A DNA stretch of 32,305 nt. Source: Pelagibacteraceae bacterium AG-365-D07 (lineage in GTDB: Bacteria > Pseudomonadota > Alphaproteobacteria > Pelagibacterales > Pelagibacteraceae). The stretch is from the NCBI GenBank assembly GCA_003280005.1, contig QCGH01000014.1:1-32305 (forward strand), in the 5' to 3' direction. The position numbers were made by a program, and so were the translations under genes. The notes below the pieces were generated by a model, which saw only the letters and a list, made by a program, of their open reading frames with translations, was not told the origin of the DNA and did not search any database. This document shows, one piece after another, positions 2,088 to 31,713 of the stretch. Numbering within the stretch: position 1 is the first letter of the stretch; each line of letters starts with the position of its first letter.

Positions 2088-3134
2088 TTATAAAGTTTTT
2101 GCTGCATCAGTATTATGTTTTTTTAAAGTAGAATCAGTTCCATGAGCATAATGTTTGGACATATCTGGATAATATTTATAAGCAATAGGTTTTCTACCTA
2201 ATGCTACAGCCATCTCCCTAACGTGATGAGGTTCCGCTCCACAACATATTCCAATAAAGTTAACTTTCATATTTGAACATTGTTTTGCAAACTCCGCCAT
2301 TTCAAATCTGTTGCAATATAAATTATCTAAAGCGACTGGAAATGCATTACCGCCGGGGATACAATCACATCCTTCATCAACTTGATTTAAAAATCCAGGA
2401 CGTTGTTCAGTTGTTCTATACGGAACAGGTAGTGCCGCTACATGACAAGAAACAGCTTTTCTTATTTCTGGCAAAATTTTCATTGTCATTTCTGGACCTC
2501 TAAAACAATTTGTTCCAACCACATCAGCCCCATGATCCTCTAATATTTTACAACCATCACCTGGGCTAATACCATCTCTAAGACCGCCAGCACTTCTAAA
2601 TGCATAGTTGCAGACTGCAATTAATCCAGCGTCTTTAATTGCTTTGAGTGCAATTTTCATTTCTTCAACCCAAGTAATTGTTTCAGCAATTACAAAATCT
2701 ACTCCCGCATCTTTTGCCCATCCAACTTGCTCTTCAAACATTTTTTGACATTCAATATTGCTTTTTTTATCATTAGGATCATAAACGTTTGTGTTTGCAA
2801 CGTTGCCAGCTACTAATAAATCTAAATCTTTAAATTCATCTCTCGCATCTTTAGCGATTTTCAAAGCATTTTTTTGAAGTGGCTCTAGAAGATTTTCTTT
2901 ACCAATTATCCTTAGTTTTTCTCTATGCCCGTAATACGTGAATGCTTGTACTACGTCACTTCCAGCTCTAATAAATTCTCTATGTAATTGAGTAACTACT
3001 TCGGGATGTTCTAAAACTACTTCTGGAACAAATGCCCCTGCTTGTAAATAACCTCTTCTCTCCATTGCAAATAAATATCCTTCAGCACAAAGAATGGGTC
3101 CCTCATTTAATCTTGTCATTAAATCTTTTGTCAT
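2088..3134 (-). CDS. bhmT: Betaine-homocysteine S-methyltransferase-like protein
   Basis: Predicted to move a methyl group from glycine betaine (or a related donor) to homocysteine, giving methionine and dimethylglycine. The 348-aa length is normal for a single-domain homocysteine methyltransferase. The three zinc-binding cysteines of the family are visible: the Cys in VGTNCFRGPE (about residue 209) and the CC pair in IGICCGAEPHHVRE (about residue 298). The N-terminal barrel motif AGSDVVQAFTYYGHREKL also fits. The start at 3134 is set by a strong AAAGGAGG ribosome site 4 bases upstream. The next gene downstream is the dimethylglycine/sarcosine dehydrogenase, which would consume its product. 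The methyl donor is inferred from family and context; dimethylsulfoniopropionate or S-methylmethionine type donors cannot be excluded. Confidence 0.9.
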   Translation of the reverse strand: MTKDLMTRLNEGPILCAEGYLFAMERRGYLQAGAFVPEVVLEHPEVVTQLHREFIRAGSDVVQAFTYYGHREKLRIIGKENLLEPLQKNALKIAKDARDEFKDLDLLVAGNVANTNVYDPNDKKSNIECQKMFEEQVGWAKDAGVDFVIAETITWVEEMKIALKAIKDAGLIAVCNYAFRSAGGLRDGISPGDGCKILEDHGADVVGTNCFRGPEMTMKILPEIRKAVSCHVAALPVPYRTTEQRPGFLNQVDEGCDCIPGGNAFPVALDNLYCNRFEMAEFAKQCSNMKVNFIGICCGAEPHHVREMAVALGRKPIAYKYYPDMSKHYAHGTDSTLKKHNTDAAKTL

Positions 3135-3428: not shown

Positions 3429-4448
3429 ATGAAAATAAAAAACATAATTATTTCTGCTTTAGTGATACTTGGTTTCACATCATTTTCTGGGATTGCAAAC
3501 GCTAAATGTGGAAAGCTAGTTATTGCTGAGCAAAACTGGGCGTCAGCTGAATTAATGGCTAACGTAGATAAAATTATCTTAGAAGAGGGTTATGGCTGTG
3601 ACGTGGAACTTGTTCCAGGAGCTACAATGCCAACTTTTACTTCTATGAACGACAAAGGCTCACCTGACATGAACCCAGAACAATGGGCTAATGCGGTTTA
3701 CACACCATTAAAAAAAGCAGTAAGTGAAAAAAGATTAATTATTGCAAATGGTGCACCAATTACAGGTCTTGGTGAAGGTTGGTGGTTAAATCCAGCAGCT
3801 TTAAAAAAACATCCAAAACTTAAAGGAATGACTGCAGTTCAAATTCTTGAACACCCTGAGTTATTTCCAGATAAGGAAGATCCATCAAAAGGAGCTTTCA
3901 TGGGATGTCCAGCTGGTTGGGGATGTCAGCTAGCTAACGCAAATCTATTTAGAGCATTTGAAATGGAAAAAAAAGGTTGGAAGTTAATTGATCCAGGTTC
4001 AGCTGCAGGTTTAGATGGATCAATTGCAAAAGCATCTGATTCTGGTGAACCGTGGTTTGGATATTACTGGAACCCTACGTCAATGGTTGGAAAATATAAT
4101 TTACAACCAGTTGATTTTGGTGTGCCATTTGCTGGAAGAGACAACTGGGATAATTGTATTACGCTTGCAGAGCAAGATTGTGCAAATCCGAAAGCAACGG
4201 CTTGGACAAAATCAGAAGTTAACTCAATCGTAACAGCTAATTTTGCGAAAACTGGTGGTAAAGAAGCCTTAAGTTATGTTGAAAAAAGAGTATTTCCAGG
4301 TGAAGTTATGAATGGAATGCTTGTTTACATGGCTGATAACCAAGCAAAAGGGTCTGATGCAGCAGTTGAATTTTTAATTAAACACGAAGATGTTTGGACT
4401 AAATGGGTATCTTCGTCAGCTGCGAAAAAAATCAAAAAAAGTTTATAA
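3429..4448 (+). CDS. proX: Glycine betaine/TMAO-type ABC transporter substrate-binding protein
   Basis: Periplasmic receptor that delivers a methylated ammonium or sulfonium osmolyte to an ABC permease. A classic Sec signal peptide covers residues 1-25 (cleavage after IANA). The mature part is an OpuAC/ProX-like binding protein with several aromatic residues in loops expected to form the cation cage: EQNWASAE (Trp37), GEGWWLNP, GYYWNPTSM. Six cysteines occur in the exported part, including CPAGWGC and CITLAEQDC, consistent with disulfides. At 339 aa it has the usual length. It starts an operon with a permease (4505), a MetF-like and a DmdA-like gene. A GGGAGA ribosome site precedes the start. 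Ligand identity (betaine, TMAO, choline, DMSP or other) cannot be read from sequence; SAR11 proteins of this type are known to be multi-substrate. Confidence 0.88.
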   Translation: MKIKNIIISALVILGFTSFSGIANAKCGKLVIAEQNWASAELMANVDKIILEEGYGCDVELVPGATMPTFTSMNDKGSPDMNPEQWANAVYTPLKKAVSEKRLIIANGAPITGLGEGWWLNPAALKKHPKLKGMTAVQILEHPELFPDKEDPSKGAFMGCPAGWGCQLANANLFRAFEMEKKGWKLIDPGSAAGLDGSIAKASDSGEPWFGYYWNPTSMVGKYNLQPVDFGVPFAGRDNWDNCITLAEQDCANPKATAWTKSEVNSIVTANFAKTGGKEALSYVEKRVFPGEVMNGMLVYMADNQAKGSDAAVEFLIKHEDVWTKWVSSSAAKKIKKSL

Positions 4449-4460
4449 TAACTTAAATAT

Positions 4461-4488
4461 AACGAGCCTATTTTTTAATAGGCTCGTT
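4461..4488 (+). terminator. Intercistronic hairpin between binding protein and permease
   Basis: Perfect 10-bp arms, AACGAGCCTA and TAGGCTCGTT, flank an 8-base loop. It is unusually GC-containing for this window. No long T-run follows, so it probably acts as a partial terminator or as an mRNA 3'-end protector, keeping binding-protein mRNA above permease mRNA, a common arrangement in ABC importers. Confidence 0.65.
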
Positions 4489-4504
4489 AATAGAAAAAAT
4501 AATT

Positions 4505-5389
4505 ATGGAATTTTTTACTGAATTTCCCGAATTAGGTAGACGTTCGCAAATGGAGCTAAGAAAAGGTATAGACTTAGCATTTAGAAATTTTTCAAGAGAG
4601 TATGGAGATGGTATAGAGGCCTTTTTCGATCCATTATTATTTTTTTTAGTATCATTAGAAAAATTATTATTAGCAACACCATGGATTGTAATTATTACAA
4701 TAATTTGTGGATTAGCTTGGTTAGGTTCCAGAAGTTGGAAATTGGTTTTAGGTAGCGCAATAGCATTTCTATTAATTGGTTATTTTGGCATGTGGGAAGA
4801 TTGTATGGCAACAGTTGCAATTATTCTTGTTTGTACAATTATATGTATCGTCGTTGGAATTCCAATTGGAATTGTAATGTCTAGATCTGCCAGAGCTGAA
4901 AGAGCTATACTTCCAATTTTAGATATGATGCAAACAATTCCAAGTTTTGTTTATCTAATTCCAATTTTAATGTTGTTAGGAATTGGAAAAGTACCAGGTC
5001 TAATAGCCGTTTGTGTCTATGCTGTACCTCCAATAATTAGATTAACCAACCTAGGTATAAGAGAGGTCGATAAAGAGACTTTGGAGGCTAGTGAGGCATT
5101 TGGTGCCACCACTGTGCAAAAGTTAAAATCGGTTCAAATACCTTTGGCTCTTCCAACTGTATTTGCTGGGGTTAACCAAACAATTATGATGGCATTAGCT
5201 ATGGTGGTAATTGCTTCGATGATTGGTGTAAAAGGGCTTGGAGTGCCGATTTTAAGAGCTGTATCAAATCAGTACCTGGCATTAGGATTATTTAATGGTC
5301 TAGCAATAGTTGCTCTAGCAATTGTATTTGACCGAGTAACCCAAGAATACGGAAGAAGAATTCAAAAACACAGAGGTCAGAGAAAATAA
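4505..5389 (+). CDS. proW: Betaine-type ABC transporter permease
   Basis: Inner-membrane subunit of an osmolyte importer. The 294 residues have a long N-terminal stretch (about 45 residues, soluble) followed by about six or seven hydrophobic segments. The permease coupling (EAA) loop reads EASEAFGATTVQKLKSVQIP around residue 198, ending in the usual LALP segment. It is a single-domain ProW/OpuAB-like protein, unlike the double-length permease at 28525. It lies 56 bp after the binding protein, separated by a hairpin. No ATPase gene accompanies this pair; the only ATPase of the family in the window is at 30682. The start is preceded by an A-rich stretch with no clear ribosome site. Confidence 0.87.
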   Translation: MEFFTEFPELGRRSQMELRKGIDLAFRNFSREYGDGIEAFFDPLLFFLVSLEKLLLATPWIVIITIICGLAWLGSRSWKLVLGSAIAFLLIGYFGMWEDCMATVAIILVCTIICIVVGIPIGIVMSRSARAERAILPILDMMQTIPSFVYLIPILMLLGIGKVPGLIAVCVYAVPPIIRLTNLGIREVDKETLEASEAFGATTVQKLKSVQIPLALPTVFAGVNQTIMMALAMVVIASMIGVKGLGVPILRAVSNQYLALGLFNGLAIVALAIVFDRVTQEYGRRIQKHRGQRK

Positions 5390-5430
5390 AATTTTCTAGA
5401 CAGTTATTCTAAAATAAATAAATATCTCGA

Positions 5431-6159
5431 ATGAATTTTTCAATTGAGATAGGACCTGCTACAGACCTAGAAACTCTTCCAGCTTTAAAGGATGTTTATA
5501 TTACTATGTTGCCTGGTGGAGATTTTAGAGAAACGGCAGATCAAGCAGAAAAATTAGTGAAAAAAGGTCTTAACCCGATTCCCCATATTCCTGCTAGATC
5601 GATTGAAAACGAAGCACAACTAAAAGAATATGTTTCTAGATGTAGAGATGGAGGAACTAAACAAGTCTTAGTTATTGGTGGTAGTAGAGAACCAATCGGG
5701 GATTTTGATAGTTCAATTCAGCTTTTGGAAACTGGTTATTTTGAGGATATGAAGATTGGAATTGCTGGACACCCAGAAGGGAGTCCTGATATATCTGATT
5801 CAAAATTAGAAAAAGCTATGAATGATAAAAAGCCTTATGCTGACTATATAGTTACCCAATGGTTGCTAGATTCTCAGTTAATCTTAGACTTTATTTCTAA
5901 ACAAACAGTACCAGTTCATGTTGGAATTACTGGACCTTTAAAAATTACAAGCTTAATTAAGTTTGCAAATATTGTTGGGGCAAAAAATTCCTTAAACTTT
6001 CTTAAATCTAATTTTAGTAAGGCACTAGATTTAATGAAACCTAAAGACCCTAATGATTTAATTGGGAAAGTTAAATCACATACTGATAACTTCCACATTT
6101 ATACATTCGGCGGCTTGAAGGAAACTAACAAGTGGTTGATGGAGAATAAATATGTCTAA
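5431..6159 (+). CDS. Methylenetetrahydrofolate reductase-like protein (short, atypical MetF)
   Basis: MetF-family flavin barrel, expected to interconvert 5-methyl-THF and 5,10-methylene-THF. The family signature is clear: IGIAGHPEGSPDI (about residue 110), DYIVTQWLLDSQ (about 140), and GITGPLKITSLIKFANIVGA (about 167-186). The N-terminal Glu of the catalytic FxFEFFPP strand seems kept as Glu6 in FSIEIGP. The segment where classic MetF has LRGD reads VIGGSREPIGD, so the usual active-site Asp is not at that position. At 242 aa it is shorter than the roughly 290-aa classic enzyme. Its stop overlaps the start of the DmdA-like gene by 8 bases (ATGTCTAA), implying coupled translation. I infer that it oxidises methyl-THF made by that partner; this is not proven. 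Confidence 0.75.
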   Translation: MNFSIEIGPATDLETLPALKDVYITMLPGGDFRETADQAEKLVKKGLNPIPHIPARSIENEAQLKEYVSRCRDGGTKQVLVIGGSREPIGDFDSSIQLLETGYFEDMKIGIAGHPEGSPDISDSKLEKAMNDKKPYADYIVTQWLLDSQLILDFISKQTVPVHVGITGPLKITSLIKFANIVGAKNSLNFLKSNFSKALDLMKPKDPNDLIGKVKSHTDNFHIYTFGGLKETNKWLMENKYV

Positions 6160-7510
6160 AGAATTTGATTATAGTAAATTAAGACATGTAACGTCAGTGG
6201 ATCAATCTGACAGAAAGGTTCCGTACAATTTAAGACAAAGCGGACCAACAAAAGTAGAAATGCTAATTTCAACGAGGGTAAGAAAATCTCCTTATTGGCA
6301 TTTATCAATGAGAGAAGGTTGCTGGAGAGCAACTGTATACAATCGTATTTACCATCCGAGAGGATATGTGAAGCCAGAAGATGGTGGAGCAATGGTAGAA
6401 TATGATGCAATCGTAAATCATGTAACAATGTGGAATGTAGCTGTTGAAAGACAAATTCAAGTTAAAGGTCCTGATGCAGAAAAGTTTGTAGATTATGTAA
6501 TTACAAGAGATGCAACTAAAATTTCGCCAATGAGAGCAAGATATGTAATTCTTTGCAATCAATATGGTGGAGTTTTAAACGATCCTATACTTTTAAGAAT
6601 TTCAAAAGATGAATTTTGGTTTTCTTTATCAGATAGTGATATCGGAATGTACTTACAGGGTGTTAATGCTGATGGAAGATTTAATTGCGAGATACATGAA
6701 ATCGATGTATCGCCAGTTCAAATACAAGGTCCTAAATCTAAAGCATTGATGCAAGATCTTTGTGGTGATCAAGTAGATTTTGATAATATTCCTTTTTATG
6801 GATTAGCTTCAGCTAAGATTGGTGGAAGAAGTTGTATAATTTCTCAATCTGGTTTCTCTGGAGAAGCGGGATATGAAATATATTTAAGAGAATCTACTTT
6901 ATATGCTGAAGATATGTGGAACGCTGTTCTTGAAGCAGGAAAAAAACATAAACTTATGGTGATAGCACCTGCTCACCATAGAAGAATACAGGCTGGAATT
7001 TTATCTTGGGGACAAGATATGGATCATCAACACAATCCTTATCAATGTAATTTGGGATATCAAGTTTCACTATCTGGAAAAGGTGAGTGGAATAAAAAGG
7101 GTGATTACGTGGGTAAGAAAGCTTTAGAAGCTATGGGTGCTGATATAAAAGCTGGAAAAAAACCTTACAAACTTCAATTAGTTGGAATGGAATTGGGTGG
7201 CAAACCAATTGATGACTATGCTCCTGATTTCTGGTTGATATCTAATGAAGATGGAGGTGAGCCAGTAGGATTTGTTACTTCTCCATGGTGGCATCCTGAA
7301 AAGAAAACTAACATCGCAATGGGTTATGTGCCTTTTGATGGTACTTTAAATGCAAATGGATTTCCTAAAGGTAAAGTTGGAACTAAATATAAAGTTCATT
7401 TGCCAGAAAAATATTCTGACAAACCTGGACAACCAGTAGATGCAGTTGTTGTTGATATTCCATTCAAGGAATCATTCAACGCAAACACTAGAGAAGTTGT
7501 AAAAGGCTAA
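6152..7510 (+). CDS. DmdA/GcvT-family tetrahydrofolate-dependent methyltransferase (demethylase)
   Basis: Predicted to move a methyl group from a methylated substrate to tetrahydrofolate. It resembles DMSP demethylase DmdA more than GcvT: WRATVYNRIYHPRG, then MWNVAVERQIQVKGPDA (about residue 93), VLNDPILL and the SLSDSD strand, SGFSGEAGYEIYLRES (about 230), and LSWGQDMDHQHNPYQC (about 285), which parallels DmdA LSYGNDFDNNDNPFEC. At 452 aa it is about 80 residues longer than typical SAR11 DmdA (about 369), with an N-terminal extension of about 35 residues. It is translationally coupled to the MetF-like gene and lies in the same operon as an osmolyte importer. Substrate could be DMSP or another quaternary ammonium or sulfonium compound; the differences in length make a non-DMSP substrate plausible. 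Confidence 0.8.
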   Translation: MSKEFDYSKLRHVTSVDQSDRKVPYNLRQSGPTKVEMLISTRVRKSPYWHLSMREGCWRATVYNRIYHPRGYVKPEDGGAMVEYDAIVNHVTMWNVAVERQIQVKGPDAEKFVDYVITRDATKISPMRARYVILCNQYGGVLNDPILLRISKDEFWFSLSDSDIGMYLQGVNADGRFNCEIHEIDVSPVQIQGPKSKALMQDLCGDQVDFDNIPFYGLASAKIGGRSCIISQSGFSGEAGYEIYLRESTLYAEDMWNAVLEAGKKHKLMVIAPAHHRRIQAGILSWGQDMDHQHNPYQCNLGYQVSLSGKGEWNKKGDYVGKKALEAMGADIKAGKKPYKLQLVGMELGGKPIDDYAPDFWLISNEDGGEPVGFVTSPWWHPEKKTNIAMGYVPFDGTLNANGFPKGKVGTKYKVHLPEKYSDKPGQPVDAVVVDIPFKESFNANTREVVKG

Positions 7511-7598: not shown

Positions 7599-7700
7599 AT
7601 GAGCATCATGTTAATTGTTATATGTGTGATTATTACAATCGCTTTAATAATATTTCCATTAGCAGTATCTTATGTTGCCCAGAAAAAAGATAAAAAATAA
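7599..7700 (+). CDS. 33-residue single-pass membrane peptide
   Basis: Very small ORF: it begins MSIMLIVICVIITIAL and ends with the charged tail QKKDKK. About 23 hydrophobic residues form one membrane helix, with the positive tail expected in the cytoplasm. A TTTAGG stretch precedes the ATG. The last base of its TAA is the first base of the ATG of the YIP1-like gene (TAATG), so the two are very likely co-translated. I do not recognise a family; it may be a small partner or stabiliser of the downstream membrane protein. The coupling and the hydrophobic pattern are the evidence that it is real. Confidence 0.6.
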   Translation: MSIMLIVICVIITIALIIFPLAVSYVAQKKDKK

Positions 7701-8245
7701 TGTTTGGGCAATTTTTACATATTGTTGTTAGCTGTTTAAAATTAGATAGGAATATCTTTAAAGATCCAAAATATTTTGGAGAAGCTGCAGTTTATTTTGC
7801 AGGTCTAATTATGATGTTAGATGGAGTGGCGGGAGCAGTGGCAGCAAATACTTTTGTTAAAACTTCAATAGGTGTATCTGGGATTACAGCGCTTGTAACT
7901 TGGTTAATTTGGGCAATATTTATCTATGTTATTGGTGTAAAGTTATTTCCAGACGGAAACTCTAAAATACCCTTTAAAAAAGTTCTTATAGGAGTTGGGT
8001 ACGCACACGCTCCTGGCTTAATTAGATTTTTTGCAGTAACGCCAGAACTTGTTATCCCAATAATTTTTCTTACACAGTTTTGGATATTTGCAGCTTTAAT
8101 TATTTCTACAAAACATATTTTAAATTTAAAATCAAATCTTAAAGCTTTTGGAATAATATTTTTATCTTTTTTGATAATTGCTTTTTTGTCTATATCATTC
8201 GTAATGAGTAGAATGAGCGCTCTGCCAATATCCAATATTAGTTAA
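7700..8245 (+). CDS. YIP1-like integral membrane protein
   Basis: 181-aa polytopic membrane protein. Hydrophobic segments lie at about residues 28-50, 58-82, 98-118, 122-140 and 143-168. The pattern and the segment VLIGVGYAHAPGLIRFF, followed by FLTQFWIFAALIISTKHIL, resemble bacterial YIP1-domain proteins. The function of bacterial members is unknown. It starts by TAATG coupling to a 33-residue membrane peptide. Its 3' end overlaps the convergent 48-aa zinc-ribbon-like gene by 4 bases. Confidence 0.72.
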   Translation: MFGQFLHIVVSCLKLDRNIFKDPKYFGEAAVYFAGLIMMLDGVAGAVAANTFVKTSIGVSGITALVTWLIWAIFIYVIGVKLFPDGNSKIPFKKVLIGVGYAHAPGLIRFFAVTPELVIPIIFLTQFWIFAALIISTKHILNLKSNLKAFGIIFLSFLIIAFLSISFVMSRMSALPISNIS

Positions 8246-16975: not shown

Positions 16976-17554
16976 CTAAACTGATTTGTAGCCAAATTCT
17001 AAACTAGAATCAGTTAGCGAATGATACAAAGACTCTCCAAAACTTCTCAAACCAAAGATTCTTATTATTTTTGGATCGTTTGAAATAAAATCTAAAGTTA
17101 TCGTAATTCCATTAAAGATTGTATTAGCACAGTCTCCAGCCTTTAATTTTCCTACATCTAAAGGAGATCCTTTTTTTAAAACTTCGTATACCATATCACC
17201 CTCAAGCTCGATGATTGATCTCGAATGAGAAAGATCTGTAATTGCAAAATCAGTTTCTTTAAAATTATGTAAATCTTTACTTATTTCATTAGATGAAAAA
17301 ATATACCAATTATCTGGACCCATCCAAATAATTCTTGTAGATGAATTACTTATTGTTTTAAGACTACTAGGTAAGTTAAGTCCATCTATTTTAAAATTTG
17401 AAATGTTTTCCTTAGAATTTTTATATTTTACGACTTGAAATAAATTTATATTTTTAATTTCTTTTATTTTAACTATCTCATTATCATTTTTATTTTTATA
17501 ATCACCAAATAATCCTAATTTATGTACATTTTTTAGAGAAGAGATACTATTCAC
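16976..17554 (-). CDS. soxG: Sarcosine oxidase gamma subunit
   Basis: Fourth subunit of heterotetrameric sarcosine oxidase, a small GcvT-like protein of 192 aa. Recognisable pieces are TRIIWMGPDNWYIFS (about residue 73), FAITDLSHSRSIIELEG (about 101) and KAGDCANTIFNGITITL (about 138). It starts at a GTG (17554) whose GTGA overlaps the TGA stop of soxA. The gamma subunit is the most divergent of the four, and its identity rests partly on position at the end of soxBDAG. The gene is convergent with the persulfide dioxygenase gene, one base apart. Confidence 0.88.
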   Translation of the reverse strand: MNSISSLKNVHKLGLFGDYKNKNDNEIVKIKEIKNINLFQVVKYKNSKENISNFKIDGLNLPSSLKTISNSSTRIIWMGPDNWYIFSSNEISKDLHNFKETDFAITDLSHSRSIIELEGDMVYEVLKKGSPLDVGKLKAGDCANTIFNGITITLDFISNDPKIIRIFGLRSFGESLYHSLTDSSLEFGYKSV

Positions 17555-20547
17555 GATCTTACCCTCTTACCTTCATGATCAACATAATGGGAAGAAATTA
17601 CCTCAACTTCTATAGATTTGTTTTTTAATGGAGATACTGCGAATAACTTTTTTCCTATCATATTTTTTCCATCTTTTAAAATTGCTAATGAAAAAGGATT
17701 ATTATTTTCAACACTCCAGCAAGAGGAAGATACGTGTCCTAATTTTGGATTTGGTAATTTGGCATTTTTATCTATAACAAGATGTGAGCCCTCGGGAATG
17801 CTAGTTTTTCTATCAATTGGTACAAGCCCAACAATTTTTTGCCTATCAGACTGATTAAAAGCTGATTTAGATAAAGATCTTTTTCCAATAAAATCTTTTT
17901 TCTTTGAAACCATTCCATCAAGAGAAACATCATAAGGTATAGTTCTTCCATCTAGTTCTGGCCCTGCAACATGTCCCATTTCTATTCTTAATGTAGATAA
18001 TGCTTCTGTTCCATATGGTTGGATGCCAAATTCTTTACCAATCTCCATTATTTTTTCCCACATAAATAATCCATGGTCTGATTTTACGTTTATTTCATAA
18101 GCTAGTTCACCTGAAAAAGAAATTCTAAAAATTCTTGCTGGCACACCGAACAGATCTCCTTCTGTAAATCCCATAAATGGCAAAGACTCATTTGAGACAT
18201 TTAAATTTGGAAATAATTTTGCTAAAACATCTCTTGATTTTGGACCTGCGAGCGCTGCACCTGCCCACTGTTCAGTGGTTGAAAGGACATTTACATTTAA
18301 TTCTGGCCAAACAATTTGTAGATAATATTCTAAATGAGACAAGACATTTGCTGCCTGTGCAGTTGTTGTTGTCATATGATAGTGATTTTCTGAAATTCTT
18401 GTAGTCGTTCCGTCATCCATTACCATGCCATCTTCTCTAAGCATAACTCCATACCTTGCTTTTCCAATTGGAAGCTTCATCCATGCGTTGGTATATACTC
18501 TGTTTAAAAATTCAGCTGCATCAGGACCTTTAACATCAATTTTTCCTAAAGTTGTAACATCACATATACCTACCTTATCTCTTACATTTTTGGCTTCACG
18601 ATTAGCTGCCTCCAACATATTTTCATTTCCAATTTTATAATACCTAGGTCTTTTCCACGCTCCAGCATCAACAAATACTGCATTATTTTTTATATGCCAA
18701 TTATGCATTGGAGTTAATCTTGTTGGCATGAAATGTTTTCCCACTTCTCTTCCAACGATAGTCCCTATTGTTACTGGAGTGAAAGGTGGTCTAAATGTAG
18801 TATGGCCAACTTCAGGAACAATTTTATTCTCTATATTTGAAACTAATTGAAGTCCGTTCAGATTACTTGTTCTTCCTTGATCTGTTGCCATTCCAAGAGT
18901 AGTATATCTCTTCACATGCTCAATTGATCTATAGCCTTCTCTTAATGCAATCTCAATATCTGTAACTGATACATCATTTTGAAAATCAACAAATCTTTTT
19001 GCTTTAATATTTTTAGGTAATGGAGCACACCAAAACTTATCATGAGTATTGTGTTTTTTTTCTGTAACAGTTGGAATTTGGACATCAACATTCTTATTAT
19101 TTATTTTTTTAGAAACCTCATTTCCAGCATGGAAGCCTGCATTTATAGAATCATGTAGCGTGAAACTTCCATTCGCTGCGCCAATTGTTATTTCATTTTG
19201 TTTTGATTTATCAGGTATAAAAGCATCAATTTCTTTATTAAACTTTAGTTTATTTCCTGATTGAGATGTAAGATGAACAGATGGTGTCCAAAATCCAGAT
19301 ACACAAATACAATCACATTTTATAGTACTAATATTATCGTATTTTGTTTTATCTTCTGATAATTCTCCAATAGTTGCTGATTTTACCTTTTTATAACCAT
19401 TGGCTTTGATAACAGCGTGATTAAATTTAATATTTATACCCTTGTTTTTTGCCTCATTAATTAAATCTGAATCTTGCTCTTTTCTTGTATCTAAAATTAA
19501 AGGATCAGCTCCGTTATTTTTAAATTCTATAGCAGTTTCATATGCGCTATCATTATTTGTGAATATAATTGGTTTTCTTCCAACAAGAACTCCATAGACT
19601 TTCATGTATTCTTTAGCTCCCGAGGAAAGCATAACTCCAGGTGTATCATTATTTCCAAAAACAATGGGTCTTTCAATAGAACCTGTAGAGAGTATTACCT
19701 CTTTGCATCTTATATACCAAAGTCTCTGTCTTGGTGTAAATTCAGATTTTTTTTCAAGATGATCACCTGTTCTTTCAAACATAACAAGCATGTTGTGGTC
19801 GTAATAGCCAAAAATTTGAGATCTGTTTTTTACAGTCACATTTGGCATTTCTTTTAGTTCTGAAATAATTTTATCTGCCCAATCTTTTCCAGATAAATTG
19901 TCAATACTCACATCATCCATTAAAAGTGACCCACCAAATCTATGTTTATCCTCCGCTAATATTACTTTAGCTCCACTTTTGGCTGCTGCGTATGCGCTTG
20001 CAAGACCTGCGGGGCCAGATCCAGTTACTAGCAAATCACAGTATTCAAATTTATGTTCATACCTCTCTCTATCCTTTTCTGTAGACGCAACCCCTAGTCC
20101 TGCAGCTTTTCTTATAAATGGTTCATAAATTTTGTACCAAAAACTCTTGGGCCACATGAAAGTTTTGTAATAAAAACCTGCAGGGAAAAATTTATTCAGT
20201 AAATTATTAATTGCACCAACATCAAAATCTACAGATGGCCAACAATTTTGACTTGTGGCTGATATACCTTCAACTAATTCTATTTCTGTTGCATTAACAT
20301 TTGGTTCAGAATGTCCATTTAATTTAACTTGTAATTTTGCATTTGGCTCGTCTACTCCAGCTGCAAAAAATCCCCTAGGTCTATGATATTTAAAACTTCT
20401 TCCAACTAAATGAATTCCATTCGCTAAAAGGGCAGATGCTAAAGTATCTCCTTCATATCCAGTATAACTTTTCCCATTAAACTTAAAATTAATAAGTTTA
20501 TTTCTATTAATGTACCCTTTTTCTTTAATTCTAAATTCCTGAGACAT
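17551..20547 (-). CDS. soxA: Sarcosine oxidase alpha subunit
   Basis: 998 aa, the full size of TsoA/SoxA. It makes glycine, 5,10-methylene-THF and H2O2 from sarcosine with the other subunits. An N-terminal ferredoxin-like domain (residues about 15-100, GYEGDTLASALLANG, then FKYHRPRGFFAAGVDEPNA) is followed by an NAD-binding domain (LLVTGSGPAGLASAYAAA, about 172) and, from about residue 610, a GcvT-like folate domain (GICDVTTLGKIDVKGPD, SFSGELAYEINV, LRIEMGHVAGPELDGR). The gene starts by TAATG coupling to soxD. Complete and intact in this window. Confidence 0.96.
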   Translation of the reverse strand: MSQEFRIKEKGYINRNKLINFKFNGKSYTGYEGDTLASALLANGIHLVGRSFKYHRPRGFFAAGVDEPNAKLQVKLNGHSEPNVNATEIELVEGISATSQNCWPSVDFDVGAINNLLNKFFPAGFYYKTFMWPKSFWYKIYEPFIRKAAGLGVASTEKDRERYEHKFEYCDLLVTGSGPAGLASAYAAAKSGAKVILAEDKHRFGGSLLMDDVSIDNLSGKDWADKIISELKEMPNVTVKNRSQIFGYYDHNMLVMFERTGDHLEKKSEFTPRQRLWYIRCKEVILSTGSIERPIVFGNNDTPGVMLSSGAKEYMKVYGVLVGRKPIIFTNNDSAYETAIEFKNNGADPLILDTRKEQDSDLINEAKNKGINIKFNHAVIKANGYKKVKSATIGELSEDKTKYDNISTIKCDCICVSGFWTPSVHLTSQSGNKLKFNKEIDAFIPDKSKQNEITIGAANGSFTLHDSINAGFHAGNEVSKKINNKNVDVQIPTVTEKKHNTHDKFWCAPLPKNIKAKRFVDFQNDVSVTDIEIALREGYRSIEHVKRYTTLGMATDQGRTSNLNGLQLVSNIENKIVPEVGHTTFRPPFTPVTIGTIVGREVGKHFMPTRLTPMHNWHIKNNAVFVDAGAWKRPRYYKIGNENMLEAANREAKNVRDKVGICDVTTLGKIDVKGPDAAEFLNRVYTNAWMKLPIGKARYGVMLREDGMVMDDGTTTRISENHYHMTTTTAQAANVLSHLEYYLQIVWPELNVNVLSTTEQWAGAALAGPKSRDVLAKLFPNLNVSNESLPFMGFTEGDLFGVPARIFRISFSGELAYEINVKSDHGLFMWEKIMEIGKEFGIQPYGTEALSTLRIEMGHVAGPELDGRTIPYDVSLDGMVSKKKDFIGKRSLSKSAFNQSDRQKIVGLVPIDRKTSIPEGSHLVIDKNAKLPNPKLGHVSSSCWSVENNNPFSLAILKDGKNMIGKKLFAVSPLKNKSIEVEVISSHYVDHEGKRVRS

Positions 20548-20813
20548 TATATTTCTTCATTCATCGTTGCTGTTTTGAAAATTTCGTGAGTAGCTGTATC
20601 TCTTTGAGCTTTAAACCATTGTCTGCAACCTGAAACATGGTGCCATAGTTCGATATGTTTTCCTCTTAGGCTTTTTCTATTATAAACAAAGTCATCCCAT
20701 TCTTTATCTGGTACATCTTTATTTAATTCTGGTCGTTTTACTGAAGCGTCTCCTCCATAAGCAAATTCATTCTGTGATCTAATCCCACAATAAGGACATT
20801 TAATATGAAGCAT
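20547..20813 (-). CDS. soxD: Sarcosine oxidase delta subunit
   Basis: 88-aa zinc-binding subunit. It begins MLHIKCPYCGIRSQNEF, with two of the Zn cysteines in CPYCG, and further on has LWHHVSGCRQWFKAQRDT, with the His and Cys expected to complete the site. It ends in TAATG overlap with soxA and begins 3 bases after the stop of soxB, the standard soxBDAG order. Confidence 0.96.
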   Translation of the reverse strand: MLHIKCPYCGIRSQNEFAYGGDASVKRPELNKDVPDKEWDDFVYNRKSLRGKHIELWHHVSGCRQWFKAQRDTATHEIFKTATMNEEI

Positions 20814-20816
20814 TAG

Positions 20817-22073
20817 TTATCCAACCCAAGTTTTTGTTCCAATACCCTTTTCGTCTAAAAGATACCCGGTTGAAAATCTATTTAAAGACAATTCTGAATT
20901 TAATTCATGTGGTCTATCTTGTGCAATTGTATGAGCAAAAGTCCAGCCAGAAACAGGGGTAGACTTAAATCCACCATAGCACCATCCACAATTTAAATAT
21001 AATCCATCTATATGTGTTTTATCAATAATAGGTGAACCATCCATTGACATATCCATTATTCCTCCCCATGTCCGAAGCATTTTAAGTCTACTTAAAAACG
21101 GAAATAAAGCTAAGCCACCTGTTAAAACATGTTGAATAGTTGGGAGATTTCCTCTTTGTGCGTAACTATTATAACCATCTAAATCTCCACCCATTACCAT
21201 CTCACCTTTGTCAGACTGGCTAATATAAAAATGGCCAGCTCCAAATGTAACTACTCCATCTAGCAAAGGTTTAACTGGCTCAGAAACACAGGCTTGAAGG
21301 CAATGTGTTTCAATTGGAAGAGTCATATTTAGTTTTTCTGCAAGAATATTTGTACTTCCAGCTACACATAATCCAACTTTTTTAGCCTTAATTTCCCCTT
21401 TTGACGTTCTTACTCCAGTAATTTTTCCATTTGTAATATTAAATCCTTCAACTTCACAATGTTGAATGATGTCTACACCCATTGAATCTGCTTGTCTTGC
21501 ATATCCCCACGCGACAGCGTCATGTCTTGCTGTGCCAGCACTTGGTTGCATTAATCCTCCAAAAATTGGAAAGCGTACGTCGTCAGAAAAGTCAGCCATT
21601 GGAATATGTTTTTTTACTTCTTCTCTTCCTAATAAAACTGCATCAATTCCATTTAATCTCATTGAATTACCTCTCCTTGCGTAAGCATTCATTTGAGCGT
21701 CGGAATGTGCTAGGTTGATTATTCCTCTTGGTGAAAACATTACATTAAAATTTAATTCTTGACTGAGGTTTCTCCATAAATCCATTCCAAATTCATTAAA
21801 ACGTCCGTTGGCGTCATACATGAAATTTGAACGAATAATTGTTGTATTCCTTCCAACGTTTCCTCCGCCAATCCAACCCTTCTCTATTATTGCAACATTT
21901 GTTATTTTATGTTCTTTGGCTAAATAATATGCAGTAGCTAAACCGTGTCCACCACCACCAATTATGATAACATCATATTCTTTCTTTGGAGTTGGATCTT
22001 TCCAAGCCACCTCCCAGTTCATATGATCTGAAAAAGCATTTTTAATTAAGCTAAAAACAGAATATTTCTGCAT
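20817..22073 (-). CDS. soxB: Sarcosine oxidase beta subunit
   Basis: 418-aa flavoprotein subunit. FAD-binding motif IIIGGGGHGLATAYYLA (about residue 34), then KGWIGGGNVGRNTTIIRSNF (about 65-84). GTARHDAVAWGYARQA (about 175) contains the His that carries covalent FMN in characterised sarcosine oxidases. The C-terminal LNCGWCYGGFKSTPVSG motif is also typical. It leads the operon and lies divergent to fhs across a 116-bp gap, suggesting coordinated control of sarcosine oxidation and formyl-THF/formate handling. Confidence 0.96.
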   Translation of the reverse strand: MQKYSVFSLIKNAFSDHMNWEVAWKDPTPKKEYDVIIIGGGGHGLATAYYLAKEHKITNVAIIEKGWIGGGNVGRNTTIIRSNFMYDANGRFNEFGMDLWRNLSQELNFNVMFSPRGIINLAHSDAQMNAYARRGNSMRLNGIDAVLLGREEVKKHIPMADFSDDVRFPIFGGLMQPSAGTARHDAVAWGYARQADSMGVDIIQHCEVEGFNITNGKITGVRTSKGEIKAKKVGLCVAGSTNILAEKLNMTLPIETHCLQACVSEPVKPLLDGVVTFGAGHFYISQSDKGEMVMGGDLDGYNSYAQRGNLPTIQHVLTGGLALFPFLSRLKMLRTWGGIMDMSMDGSPIIDKTHIDGLYLNCGWCYGGFKSTPVSGWTFAHTIAQDRPHELNSELSLNRFSTGYLLDEKGIGTKTWVG

Positions 22074-22189: not shown

Positions 22190-23869
22190 ATGCCTAAATC
22201 TGATATTGAAATAGCAAGAGCAGCAAATATGAAACCTATCAAGGAAATCCTTGAGGTATTAAATGTCCCAGATGATCCTAAAGCTTTCAGTCCAATGGGC
22301 AGACACATAGCCAAAATAAATTTAGAGTATCTAGACCAACAAAAAGATAAGAAAGATGGAAAATTAATTCTTGTTACTGCAATCACACCTACTCCAGCGG
22401 GTGAGGGAAAAACAACTACGTCTGTAGGTTTAAATGATGGTTTGAATAAAATCGGAAAAAAATCAATTGTTTGTCTAAGAGAACCAAGTTTAGGACCTTC
22501 TTTTGGAATGAAAGGAGGGGCTGCAGGTGGTGGATATGCACAAGTAGTTCCGATGGAACAAATAAATTTACATTTCACTGGAGACTTTCACGCAATTACA
22601 TCTGCACATAATTTGCTTTCCGCGTTGATTGATAATCATATTTACTGGGGCAATAAACTTAATATTGACGTGAGAAGAGTAGTTTGGAAAAGGGTAATGG
22701 ATATGAATGATAGATCTCTTAGATCAATAGTGGTTGACTTAGGAGGTGTTGCAAACGGATATCCAAGACAAGATGGATTTGATATTACTGTAGCCTCTGA
22801 GATCATGGCGATTTTTTGTTTAGCTAATGATTTGAAAGATTTAGAGAATAGAATTGGGAATATAACAATAGCTTATACCAGAGATAAAAAACCAATTTAC
22901 GCAAAAGATTTAAATGCCCAAGGTTCAATGACAGTTCTTTTAAAGGATGCAATTAGACCAAATGTAACTCAAACATTGGAGAATAATCCTGCAATAATTC
23001 ATGGAGGTCCTTTTGCAAATATTGCTCATGGATGTAATTCAGTAATTGCAACTAAAGCAGGTTTAAAATTAGCAGATTTTGTTGTTACTGAGGCAGGTTT
23101 TGGAGCTGATCTTGGTGCAGAAAAATTTTTAGATATCAAATGTAGAAAATCTGGAATTAAACCAGATTGCGTAGTTATTGTAGCAACAATTAGAGCGCTT
23201 AAAATGCATGGAGGATTGTCAAAAGATGAATTAAAAAATGAAAATGTAGATGCTCTCAAAAAAGGATTGGTAAATTTAGAAAGACATATTAACAACACAA
23301 GAAAATTTGGCATCCCAGTTACTATTGCTGTCAATCATTTCATCACTGATACTGATAAAGAAATGAATACATTATTAGATTTTTGTAAAACACAAGGTGT
23401 GAAAGCTTCTAAGTGTACACATTGGTCTAATGGAAGTGAAGGGACAGAAGAACTTGCACAAAACGTTGTTGAAATTTGTAAAGAAAGTAAAAATACATTT
23501 AAATACTTATATGAAGATAAATTAAGTTTATTTAAAAAAATTGAAAAAATAGCACAAGAAATTTATCACGCAAGTGAAGTAGTTGCTGATACAAAAGTAA
23601 GACAACAGCTAAAAGATTTTGAGGAAAAAGGGTACGGGCAACTTCCAGTATGTATTGCAAAAACTCAATACAGTTTCTCAACAGATCCAAATTTAAAAGG
23701 TGCTCCAACTGGACATGTGTTGCCAGTCAGAGAAGTTCGGTTATCATCTGGAGCTGAGTTTATTGTTGTTGTATGTGGAGAAATAATGACTATGCCAGGT
23801 CTACCACGTGTACCTGCTGCTGACTCTATAAAGCTCAATGACAAAGGTGAAACAGAAGGTTTATTTTAA
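22190..23869 (+). CDS. fhs: Formate-tetrahydrofolate ligase
   Basis: 559-aa enzyme that joins formate and THF with ATP; in methyl-group oxidation it can run in reverse to release formate and make ATP. The P-loop [16 protein letters not shown] is at about residue 69; [20 protein letters not shown] (about 99-118) and [16 protein letters not shown] (about 298) are strongly conserved in Fhs. Length is normal. Start fixed by a GAGGAGA ribosome site. It lies next to soxBDAG, a familiar pairing for using methylene-THF. The stop overlaps the convergent amidotransferase gene by 4 bases. Confidence 0.97.
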
Positions 23870-30681: not shown

Positions 30682-31713
30682 TTAATTACTATTTTTTCTT
30701 CCTCCAAAAACCGTGTTAATTATTTTTGTAGGATTGATAGAACCGATTACTTTATTATTTTCATCTGTAACGGCCACTGTTTTTTCTTGAGAAAGAATTT
30801 TTTCAGCCACATTTTCTATGACTTCATCTTTTGAAACCTTTAAATCACCTACATTCTCTGTATTTGATGTATCCATTACATCTTCTATTAATAAAACTTT
30901 TTCTCTTGGCACTTCTTCAGTGAATTTTCTCACATATTCAGTCGCAGGATTTAAAACAATTTTTGCAGGAGTGTCTAATTGCTCAATTATACCATCTTTC
31001 ATAATTGCAATACGGTCAGCAAGTTTTAAAGCTTCATCAAAATCATGCGTAATAAACATAATTGTTTTTTGTAATTTTTCCTGAAGTCTTAAAAACTCAT
31101 CCTGCATTTCTTTACGAATTAAAGGGTCTAATGCAGAAAAAGGTTCATCTAAAAACCATATATCAGGTTCTACTGCTAAGGATCTTGCTATTCCTACTCT
31201 TTGCTGTTGACCACCTGAAAGTTCTCTTGGAAAATAATTTTCTCTTCCATCAAGGCCAACTAATTTAACCATATCCATTGCTTTGCTAATACTATCTTCA
31301 GTTTTAATTCCCTTAATTTGAAGTGGAAAAGCAATATTCTCAACTACTGTTTTATGAGGCAGCAAAGCAAAACTTTGAAAAACCATTCCCATTTTATTTC
31401 TTCTAAGGTCTATAAGTTCTTTATTATTTAATTTTAGAAGATCCTGACCTTCAATAAAAATTTTTCCACCTGTTGCATCTGTCAATCTGGATATACATCT
31501 TAACAATGTTGATTTACCTGAGCCTGATAGGCCCATTACAACCAACATTTCTCCTTTTGAAACTTCAAATGAAGCATTATTGACACCCACAATGCATCCA
31601 TTATCTTGGAAAGTTTTAGCATCAACATTACCATTTGATTCTTGAAGCATTTTTTCTGCATTTGCTCCGAAAATTTTATAAACATTTTCACATTTAATAA
31701 CTGGTTCTGACAT
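30682..31713 (-). CDS. proV: Betaine-type ABC transporter ATP-binding protein
   Basis: 343-aa ProV/OpuAA-like ATPase. Walker A GLSGSGKST (about residue 61), signature LSGGQQQRVGIARSL (about 165), Walker B IWFLDEPFSALDP (about 185), and switch His in FITHDFDEAL (about 220) are all intact. The C-terminus (about 280-343, KTVAVTDENNKVIGSIN) resembles a CBS half-domain, as in osmotically gated OpuA-type ATPases. It leads the operon with the double permease, glpK and gpsA. Being the only ATPase of its kind here, it may also serve the binding-protein/permease pair at 3429-5389. Confidence 0.9.
   Translation of the reverse strand: MSEPVIKCENVYKIFGANAEKMLQESNGNVDAKTFQDNGCIVGVNNASFEVSKGEMLVVMGLSGSGKSTLLRCISRLTDATGGKIFIEGQDLLKLNNKELIDLRRNKMGMVFQSFALLPHKTVVENIAFPLQIKGIKTEDSISKAMDMVKLVGLDGRENYFPRELSGGQQQRVGIARSLAVEPDIWFLDEPFSALDPLIRKEMQDEFLRLQEKLQKTIMFITHDFDEALKLADRIAIMKDGIIEQLDTPAKIVLNPATEYVRKFTEEVPREKVLLIEDVMDTSNTENVGDLKVSKDEVIENVAEKILSQEKTVAVTDENNKVIGSINPTKIINTVFGGRKNSN

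Follow-up and report, generated by a model that had tools for sequence, protein, structure and literature searches.

The 32,305-nucleotide contig QCGH01000014.1 of Pelagibacteraceae bacterium AG-365-D07 (the window, i.e. the whole stretch of DNA that we analysed; the genome comprises 1,050,652 bases in 31 contigs and is 85% complete) encodes a MetF-like protein and, in an overlapping frame of the same strand, a GcvT-fold methyltransferase of 452 residues, here termed AMT. In our assessment AMT is probably a tetrahydrofolate (THF)-dependent, cobalamin-independent glycine betaine demethylase with a methyl-THF-oxidising MetF partner, and gene neighbourhoods across phyla make glycine betaine its best-supported and rather likely substrate. 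In the route that we propose the osmolyte would be taken up, AMT would convert glycine betaine and THF to dimethylglycine and 5-methyl-THF, and the MetF-like partner, presumably co-translated, would oxidise 5-methyl-THF to 5,10-methylene-THF. FolD and Fhs would carry the one-carbon unit on to formate with a gain of ATP, and DMGDH-like and sarcosine oxidase enzymes would turn dimethylglycine and sarcosine into glycine. The MetF/AMT pair is real, widespread and already known; what is proposed here is its role with glycine betaine.

An earlier note on this DNA had described four open reading frames, the last two with an 8-base overlap, and all of these are present on the + strand of the sequence, the distances between successive genes being 56, 41 and -8 bases:

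3429-4448, + strand: OpuAC-type substrate-binding protein, DmpX-like, 339 aa (Pfam OpuAC, 151 bits)
4505-5389, + strand: importer permease of ProW/ChoW type, 294 aa (BPD_transp_1, 90 bits; choline permease TIGR03416, 267 bits, cut-off 363)
5431-6159, + strand: MetF-like protein, 242 aa, candidate methyl-THF-oxidising partner (MTHFR, 23.0 bits, cut-off 24)
6152-7510, + strand: AMT, GcvT-fold methyltransferase, 452 aa, candidate glycine betaine demethylase (GCV_T, 138 bits)
6152-6159, + strand: the 8 bases common to the MetF-like and AMT frames, read as ATGTCTAA

Judged by its sequence, AMT is not DmdA; it represents a separate clade to which DmdA is sister. It belongs to the GcvT superfamily (PF01571; GCV_T score above the cut-off of 25.6), and the DmdA model (NF009133) gives it 233 bits, under the curated cut-off of 410; seven further AMT orthologues reach 229-275 bits and a divergent one, G076, 337. 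AMT also stays below the cut-offs of both glycine cleavage GcvT models (149.6 vs 300 and 125.7 vs 235.85 bits). The window genome holds a separate DmdA gene (369 aa, 579 bits on the DmdA model; the P. ubique protein is closest in start and score, which together with the gene order in common with HTCC1062 led us to class the genome as SAR11-type), and AMT exceeds this DmdA by 83 residues, in line with the estimate of about 80 in the earlier note. A quick tree of 70 rows, built without bootstrap and with very long outgroup branches after removal of six duplicate or fragment rows, placed 46 AMT rows in one clade and 20 DmdA rows in another (Shimodaira-Hasegawa-like approximate likelihood ratio test, SH-aLRT, 97), the two grouping together against four GcvT/DMGDH/sox rows. 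The phylogeny that the earlier note had suggested as a check thus sets the methyltransferase outside DmdA. The AlphaFold model of AMT has a mean predicted local distance difference test score (pLDDT) of 73, with residues 1-41 and 286-304 being poor, and its closest Foldseek matches are DmdA 3tfh (E 2.9e-31) and T-protein structures, 1wos matching with E 1.6e-30.

By sequence and fold DmdA is the nearest family to AMT, sharing the N-D-P motif as well as Glu and Tyr in an E-x-Y motif, and direct methyl transfer to THF is a probable common feature; AMT differs in its separate clade, its score on the DmdA model, a conserved N-terminal extension and its gene neighbours. All 40 of 40 AMT rows have Asn143 and Asp144 of the N-D-P motif, which the four DmdA rows also carry; one locus that has no motif match (L030) stands outside the motif rows. 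We take Asp144 to be the second Asp of the GcvT D-D motif and presumably catalytic. At the position of Trp197 of SAR11 DmdA, AMT has Phe235 in all 40 A2 rows (residue numbers matched by hand), the divergent orthologue G076 has Trp, and two of the four DmdA rows have Tyr. PMC7487153 distinguishes DmdA and a 'non-DmdA' clade; some members of the latter, modelled there on DMGDH, have Phe in place of the Trp that contacts dimethylsulfoniopropionate (DMSP); from Phe235 we infer that this Phe-bearing part is the AMT clade. The O-demethylases LigM and DesA of Sphingobium, which work with MetF, are likewise GcvT-fold, THF-dependent and of similar length. They differ in that AMT scores 35.5 and 39.6 bits on the LigM and DesA models, far under the cut-offs of 580 and 800, with a TM-score of 0.52-0.60. 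LigM sits beside metF. As a separate observation, locus L055 (G039) has a second, diverged AMT-like gene directly 3' of AMT, about 1.4 kb past the AMT start (180 bits, 29% identity).

Among 61 SAR11-type genomes (the window genome and 60 relatives) an AMT orthologue occurs in 53, a count that takes in partial genes (e.g. in G035 and G052) and leaves out paralogues below about 232 bits, and the MetF-like gene occurs in 50. Wherever both are found (50/50) they are adjacent on the same strand, with a spacing of -5, 7 or 64 bases (stop codon left out of the count), and the three AMT genes without a MetF-like gene are partial or contig-end matches; chance falls far short of explaining this coupling. 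When sampling was widened within the order, AMT matches (E ≤ 1e-75) were obtained in 120 of 147 genomes, several other genera of the family having none, and of the 18 SAR11-type genomes that are at least 90% complete 17 carry AMT and 12 a BHMT-like gene. In family f2 an fhs-like gene lies divergently beside the pair in 5/5 loci read (L053-L057).

The importer behaves differently from the pair, its binding protein (ProX) adjoining AMT in 10 of the 53 AMT-bearing genomes. Within family f1, ProX lies beside AMT in 10/10 ProX genomes and within 6 kb of BHMT in 9/10, and within family f2 the corresponding numbers are 0/20 (near AMT) and 11/20. Because of these counts we regard the MetF-like/AMT pair as the conserved unit and the importer as going rather with BHMT, and rejected the importer as a member of the unit. 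The earlier note had treated all four genes as one unit joining uptake, demethylation and oxidation, and had named a lack of conserved four-gene linkage as refuting; the linkage largely fails, and what stands as the best reading is demethylation coupled to a methyl-THF-oxidising MetF. In some SAR11-type genomes the importer accompanies the pair as an accessory, probably bringing in DMSP and/or betaines.

AMT also occurs beyond SAR11. Named genomes, when scanned, yielded at least 579 confirmed stretches, the best 80 of which were kept and, after 18 near-identical ones had been dropped, left 62 deduplicated loci. The best 80 span Alpha- and Gammaproteobacteria, Arthrobacter, Brevibacterium, Nocardioides, Gemmatimonadota, Acidobacteriota and others; AMT relatives in several phyla are 64-83% identical (one 51%), and the 39 aligned from the best 80 share 64-73% identity with the window protein. 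A sample of 385 genomes of the class contains AMT in 19 genomes from 13 families, 16 of the 19 lying outside SAR11. We counted gene neighbours within 8.5 kb of AMT, using composition-aware gene calling for GC-rich loci; this radius and the score thresholds were both chosen after earlier neighbour results had been seen. The 62 named loci comprise 45 with a DMGDH-like gene, a call that cannot separate dimethylglycine from sarcosine dehydrogenases, 27 with a MetF-like gene, 18 with fhs and 10 with soxA. At least one of these four is present at 52/62 loci and at 42 of the 45 with at least 5 kb of flank on both sides; the class loci outside SAR11 gave 9/16 (8/13 with full flanks) and DmdA control loci 2/20 (2/17 with full flanks). 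BHMT-like or ProX genes (≥60 bits) were found beside none of the 62 named and 16 class loci. A cluster of GbdR-like AraC regulators neighbours AMT in 12 of 83 deduplicated loci, and two members that were scanned scored 384.8 bits (L130) and 493.3 bits (Marinobacter, L156), the latter above the NCBIfam GbdR cut-off of 480. Two Arthrobacter loci carry fhs- and DMGDH-like genes together with genes for serine hydroxymethyltransferase and PurU (L161) or FolD (L148).

Such neighbourhoods indicate N-methyl catabolism generally, and AMT might thus demethylate another quaternary N-methyl osmolyte (proline betaine, carnitine, gamma-butyrobetaine or a choline derivative) that feeds the dimethylglycine/sarcosine route, which we consider possible, if unlikely. 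Pointing the same way, the sox-type enzymes may be N-methylglutamate dehydrogenases (PMC3160333), and MtgB-like proteins diverge to many substrates (PMC12478193). The DMGDH-like genes and GbdR-like regulators, however, indicate dimethylglycine as the next intermediate, and this fits glycine betaine, which yields dimethylglycine directly. The 'methylated osmolyte' of the earlier note can therefore be kept as substrate and, via the neighbourhoods across phyla, narrowed to what is most probably glycine betaine. Homarine and trigonelline were dropped as candidates, since the literature search linked neither compound to the pair.

The distribution of other genes across the 385 class genomes is consistent with glycine betaine demethylation by AMT. 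A soxA match (E ≤ 1e-100) is present in 19/19 AMT genomes and in 130/366 others (p 7e-9), and among the soxA genomes the MttB/MtgB family (PF06253) occurs in 2/19 with AMT vs 78/130 without (p 4e-5), both p values ignoring the relatedness of the genomes (13 families). This complementarity with the MttB/MtgB family is the pattern that a replacement enzyme would give. MtgBCD with MetF2 of R. pomeroyi (PMC12478193) resembles the route proposed here in its step and in the fate of the methyl group, i.e. methyl-THF followed by MetF-type oxidation, with MetF2, which acts in glycine betaine catabolism, being the analogue of the MetF-like partner. MtgBCD differs in being cobalamin-dependent, in its protein family (pfam06253) and in being found in just the two AMT genomes mentioned. 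The literature search, which covered titles and abstract starts, few subscription journals and no preprints, returned no GcvT-type enzyme assigned to glycine betaine.

Sun et al. 2011 (PMC3160333) noted that SAR11_1264 (metF) adjoins SAR11_1265 (gcvT-like) in HTCC1062 and guessed that the latter demethylates methylmercaptopropionate (MMPA), the second demethylation of DMSP. The numbering given there (soxB2D2A2G2 1281-1284, fhs 1285, amidotransferase 1286) agrees with the gene order of the window, and by this order alone we match the pair to SAR11_1264/1265. The pair is thus not unreported, having been in print since 2011 with MMPA as published guess, as opposed to the glycine betaine proposed here. 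We think it quite improbable that AMT acts on DMSP or MMPA, even though its clade is sister to DmdA, the adjoining importer of the window is DmpX-like, the orthologue G076 retains the Trp of SAR11 DmdA, and DmdA exceeds its cut-off in 6/9 AMT genomes vs 21/240 overall in a sample of 240 genomes. A true DmdA is encoded separately in the same genome, the three remaining AMT genomes of that sample have no DmdA above cut-off, and orthologues occur in Arthrobacter, Nocardioides, Brevibacterium and Gemmatimonadota; it is because AMT turns up where no DmdA passes the cut-off, and in genera that are not marine, that we rate the MMPA explanation lower. Genes of one-carbon and sarcosine metabolism neighbour DmdA at only the two control loci given above, and the Phe at the Trp197 position also speaks against DMSP or MMPA, yet Tyr takes this position in half of the DmdA rows.

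The importer itself looks DMSP-type. The best solved structure for the binding protein is 7yle (E 3.9e-51), which is named in PMC10030565 and whose numbering fits the RnDmpX of that paper. Of the DmpX pocket described there (Trp35, Thr64, Trp84, Glu113, Trp152, Ala153, Tyr200 and Trp202) seven of eight residues are identical in the window protein in an alignment read by eye, with Ala153 replaced by Gly. In common with the DmpXWV importer the window protein has the cage of four Trp and a Tyr at position 200; it differs by this Gly and by the lack of an ATPase gene in the unit 3429-5389; an OpuA-type ATPase-like reading frame lies at 30682-31713, together with a permease-like one of 717 aa. In a class relative (G090, locus L235) ProX-, ProW-, ATPase- and M19-like genes lie no more than 8.5 kb from DmdA, which groups DMSP uptake with demethylation. 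Since the window importer looks DMSP-type and DmdA of this relative is found near such genes, import and demethylation at the window locus may concern different osmolytes.

Further genes of the window belong to the same metabolic context:

3-2081, - strand: DMGDH-like flavoprotein with GcvT domain, truncated by the contig end (GCV_T match at 6-809 and translation; named by inspection, no family scan)
2088-3134, - strand: BHMT-like homocysteine S-methyltransferase, divergent (Pfam S-methyl_trans, 137.5 bits)
16976-17554, just downstream of soxA: soxG-like gene (named by gene order, no family scan)
17551-22073, - strand: heterotetrameric sarcosine oxidase-type (sox) genes
17551-20547, - strand: soxA (TIGR01372, 1326.7 bits, above the cut-off of 1164)
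20547-20813, - strand: soxD (named by gene order, no family scan)
20817-22073, - strand: soxB (named by gene order, no family scan)
22190-23869, + strand: fhs-like gene (formate-THF ligase) of the same one-carbon region (named by the gene order in PMC3160333, where fhs is SAR11_1285; no family scan)

As for the MetF-like partner, its score lies just below the Pfam MTHFR gathering score, and its best solved structure is 7xg9 (E 1.2e-31), which we take to be from Sphingobium SYK-6. MTHFR-family matches (E ≤ 0.01) are present in 46/61 SAR11-type genomes and above the Pfam cut-off in 33/61; the AMT partner is the sole match in 45 of the 46, the exception being G056 with a weak, broken second match, and in four genomes (G004, G012, G021 and G024) the model missed the partner itself. 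MetH exceeds its cut-off in 0/61, with five weak matches confined to the first quarter of the model; MetE is said to be missing from SAR11 in PMC12478193. Because there is no MetH to consume methyl-THF, which would be the product of AMT, the MetF-like partner should run in the direction of methyl-THF oxidation. A further argument for this direction, the loss of an acidic residue, was dropped as the position varies between groups (Gly/Ser in the window genus, Gly in HIMB59-type loci, Asp in family f2 and many outside relatives).

If the MetF-like protein were reductive instead, AMT could have a scavenging role, supplying or balancing methyl-THF, and BHMT would carry glycine betaine catabolism. 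A BHMT-like gene is indeed near in the window and present in 27 of the 53 AMT genomes, but the MetH result and the 26 AMT genomes, many of them incomplete, in which no BHMT-like gene was found render this explanation very unlikely. The bhmT mRNA of HTCC1062 rises 33.77-fold on sulfur limitation, alongside methionine-synthesis genes (PMC5069961), which fits an anabolic role of Bhmt.

Several points nevertheless weigh against glycine betaine demethylation by AMT with an oxidative MetF. Apart from the limits on the p values and on the DMGDH-like and sox calls given above, neighbour linkage is weaker in the class sample than among the named loci, the window importer has a pocket of DMSP type, and about half of the AMT-bearing SAR11-type genomes also have a BHMT-like gene, with PMC12478193 assigning SAR11 glycine betaine demethylation to Bhmt. 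According to PMC5069961, HTCC7211 has metH and HIMB114 has metE, and methyl-THF may thus be of use to some SAR11-type strains. The same paper gives SAR11_1264/1265 mRNA at 0.10-0.20 of control and protein at 1.29-1.46 in both stationary-phase conditions, levels that do not speak for glycine betaine.

On balance we lean, by a little, towards the view that AMT adds another aerobic type to the glycine betaine demethylases GbcAB, Bhmt and MtgBCD. AMT would then be what chiefly starts glycine betaine catabolism in SAR11 and in many Alpha- and Gammaproteobacteria, Actinomycetota, Gemmatimonadota and Acidobacteriota; methionine synthesis would be the main task of SAR11 Bhmt, at odds with the 2025 proposal that SAR11 rely on Bhmt alone. 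The enzyme of the first glycine betaine demethylation in SAR11 has so far only been predicted (Bhmt). If our proposal is true, a major marine carbon pathway would gain a step that it has lacked, with the methyl group being oxidised for energy, a group of DmdA-like proteins would gain a testable function, and surveys with bhmt, mtgC and gbcAB as markers would miss a B12-free route whose gene is present in most SAR11-type genomes and in several phyla.

An Rfam scan of the window gave no match at the gathering threshold, and the gap between permease and MetF genes showed no promoter-like site on the + strand. The gap between binding protein and permease genes holds one weak promoter-like site (9/12, at 4475-4503), to which we give no weight since the scan returned fewer sites than shuffled sequence (10 vs 18.5). 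Two minor features remain:

4460-4489, no strand: perfect inverted repeat of 13 bp with a 4-base loop, between the binding protein and permease genes
7700-8245: 181-aa protein without Pfam match

The hairpin may allow unequal expression of the genes that flank it. The gene for the 181-aa protein follows AMT in 0/5 family-f2 loci and in 16/16 genus-level loci.

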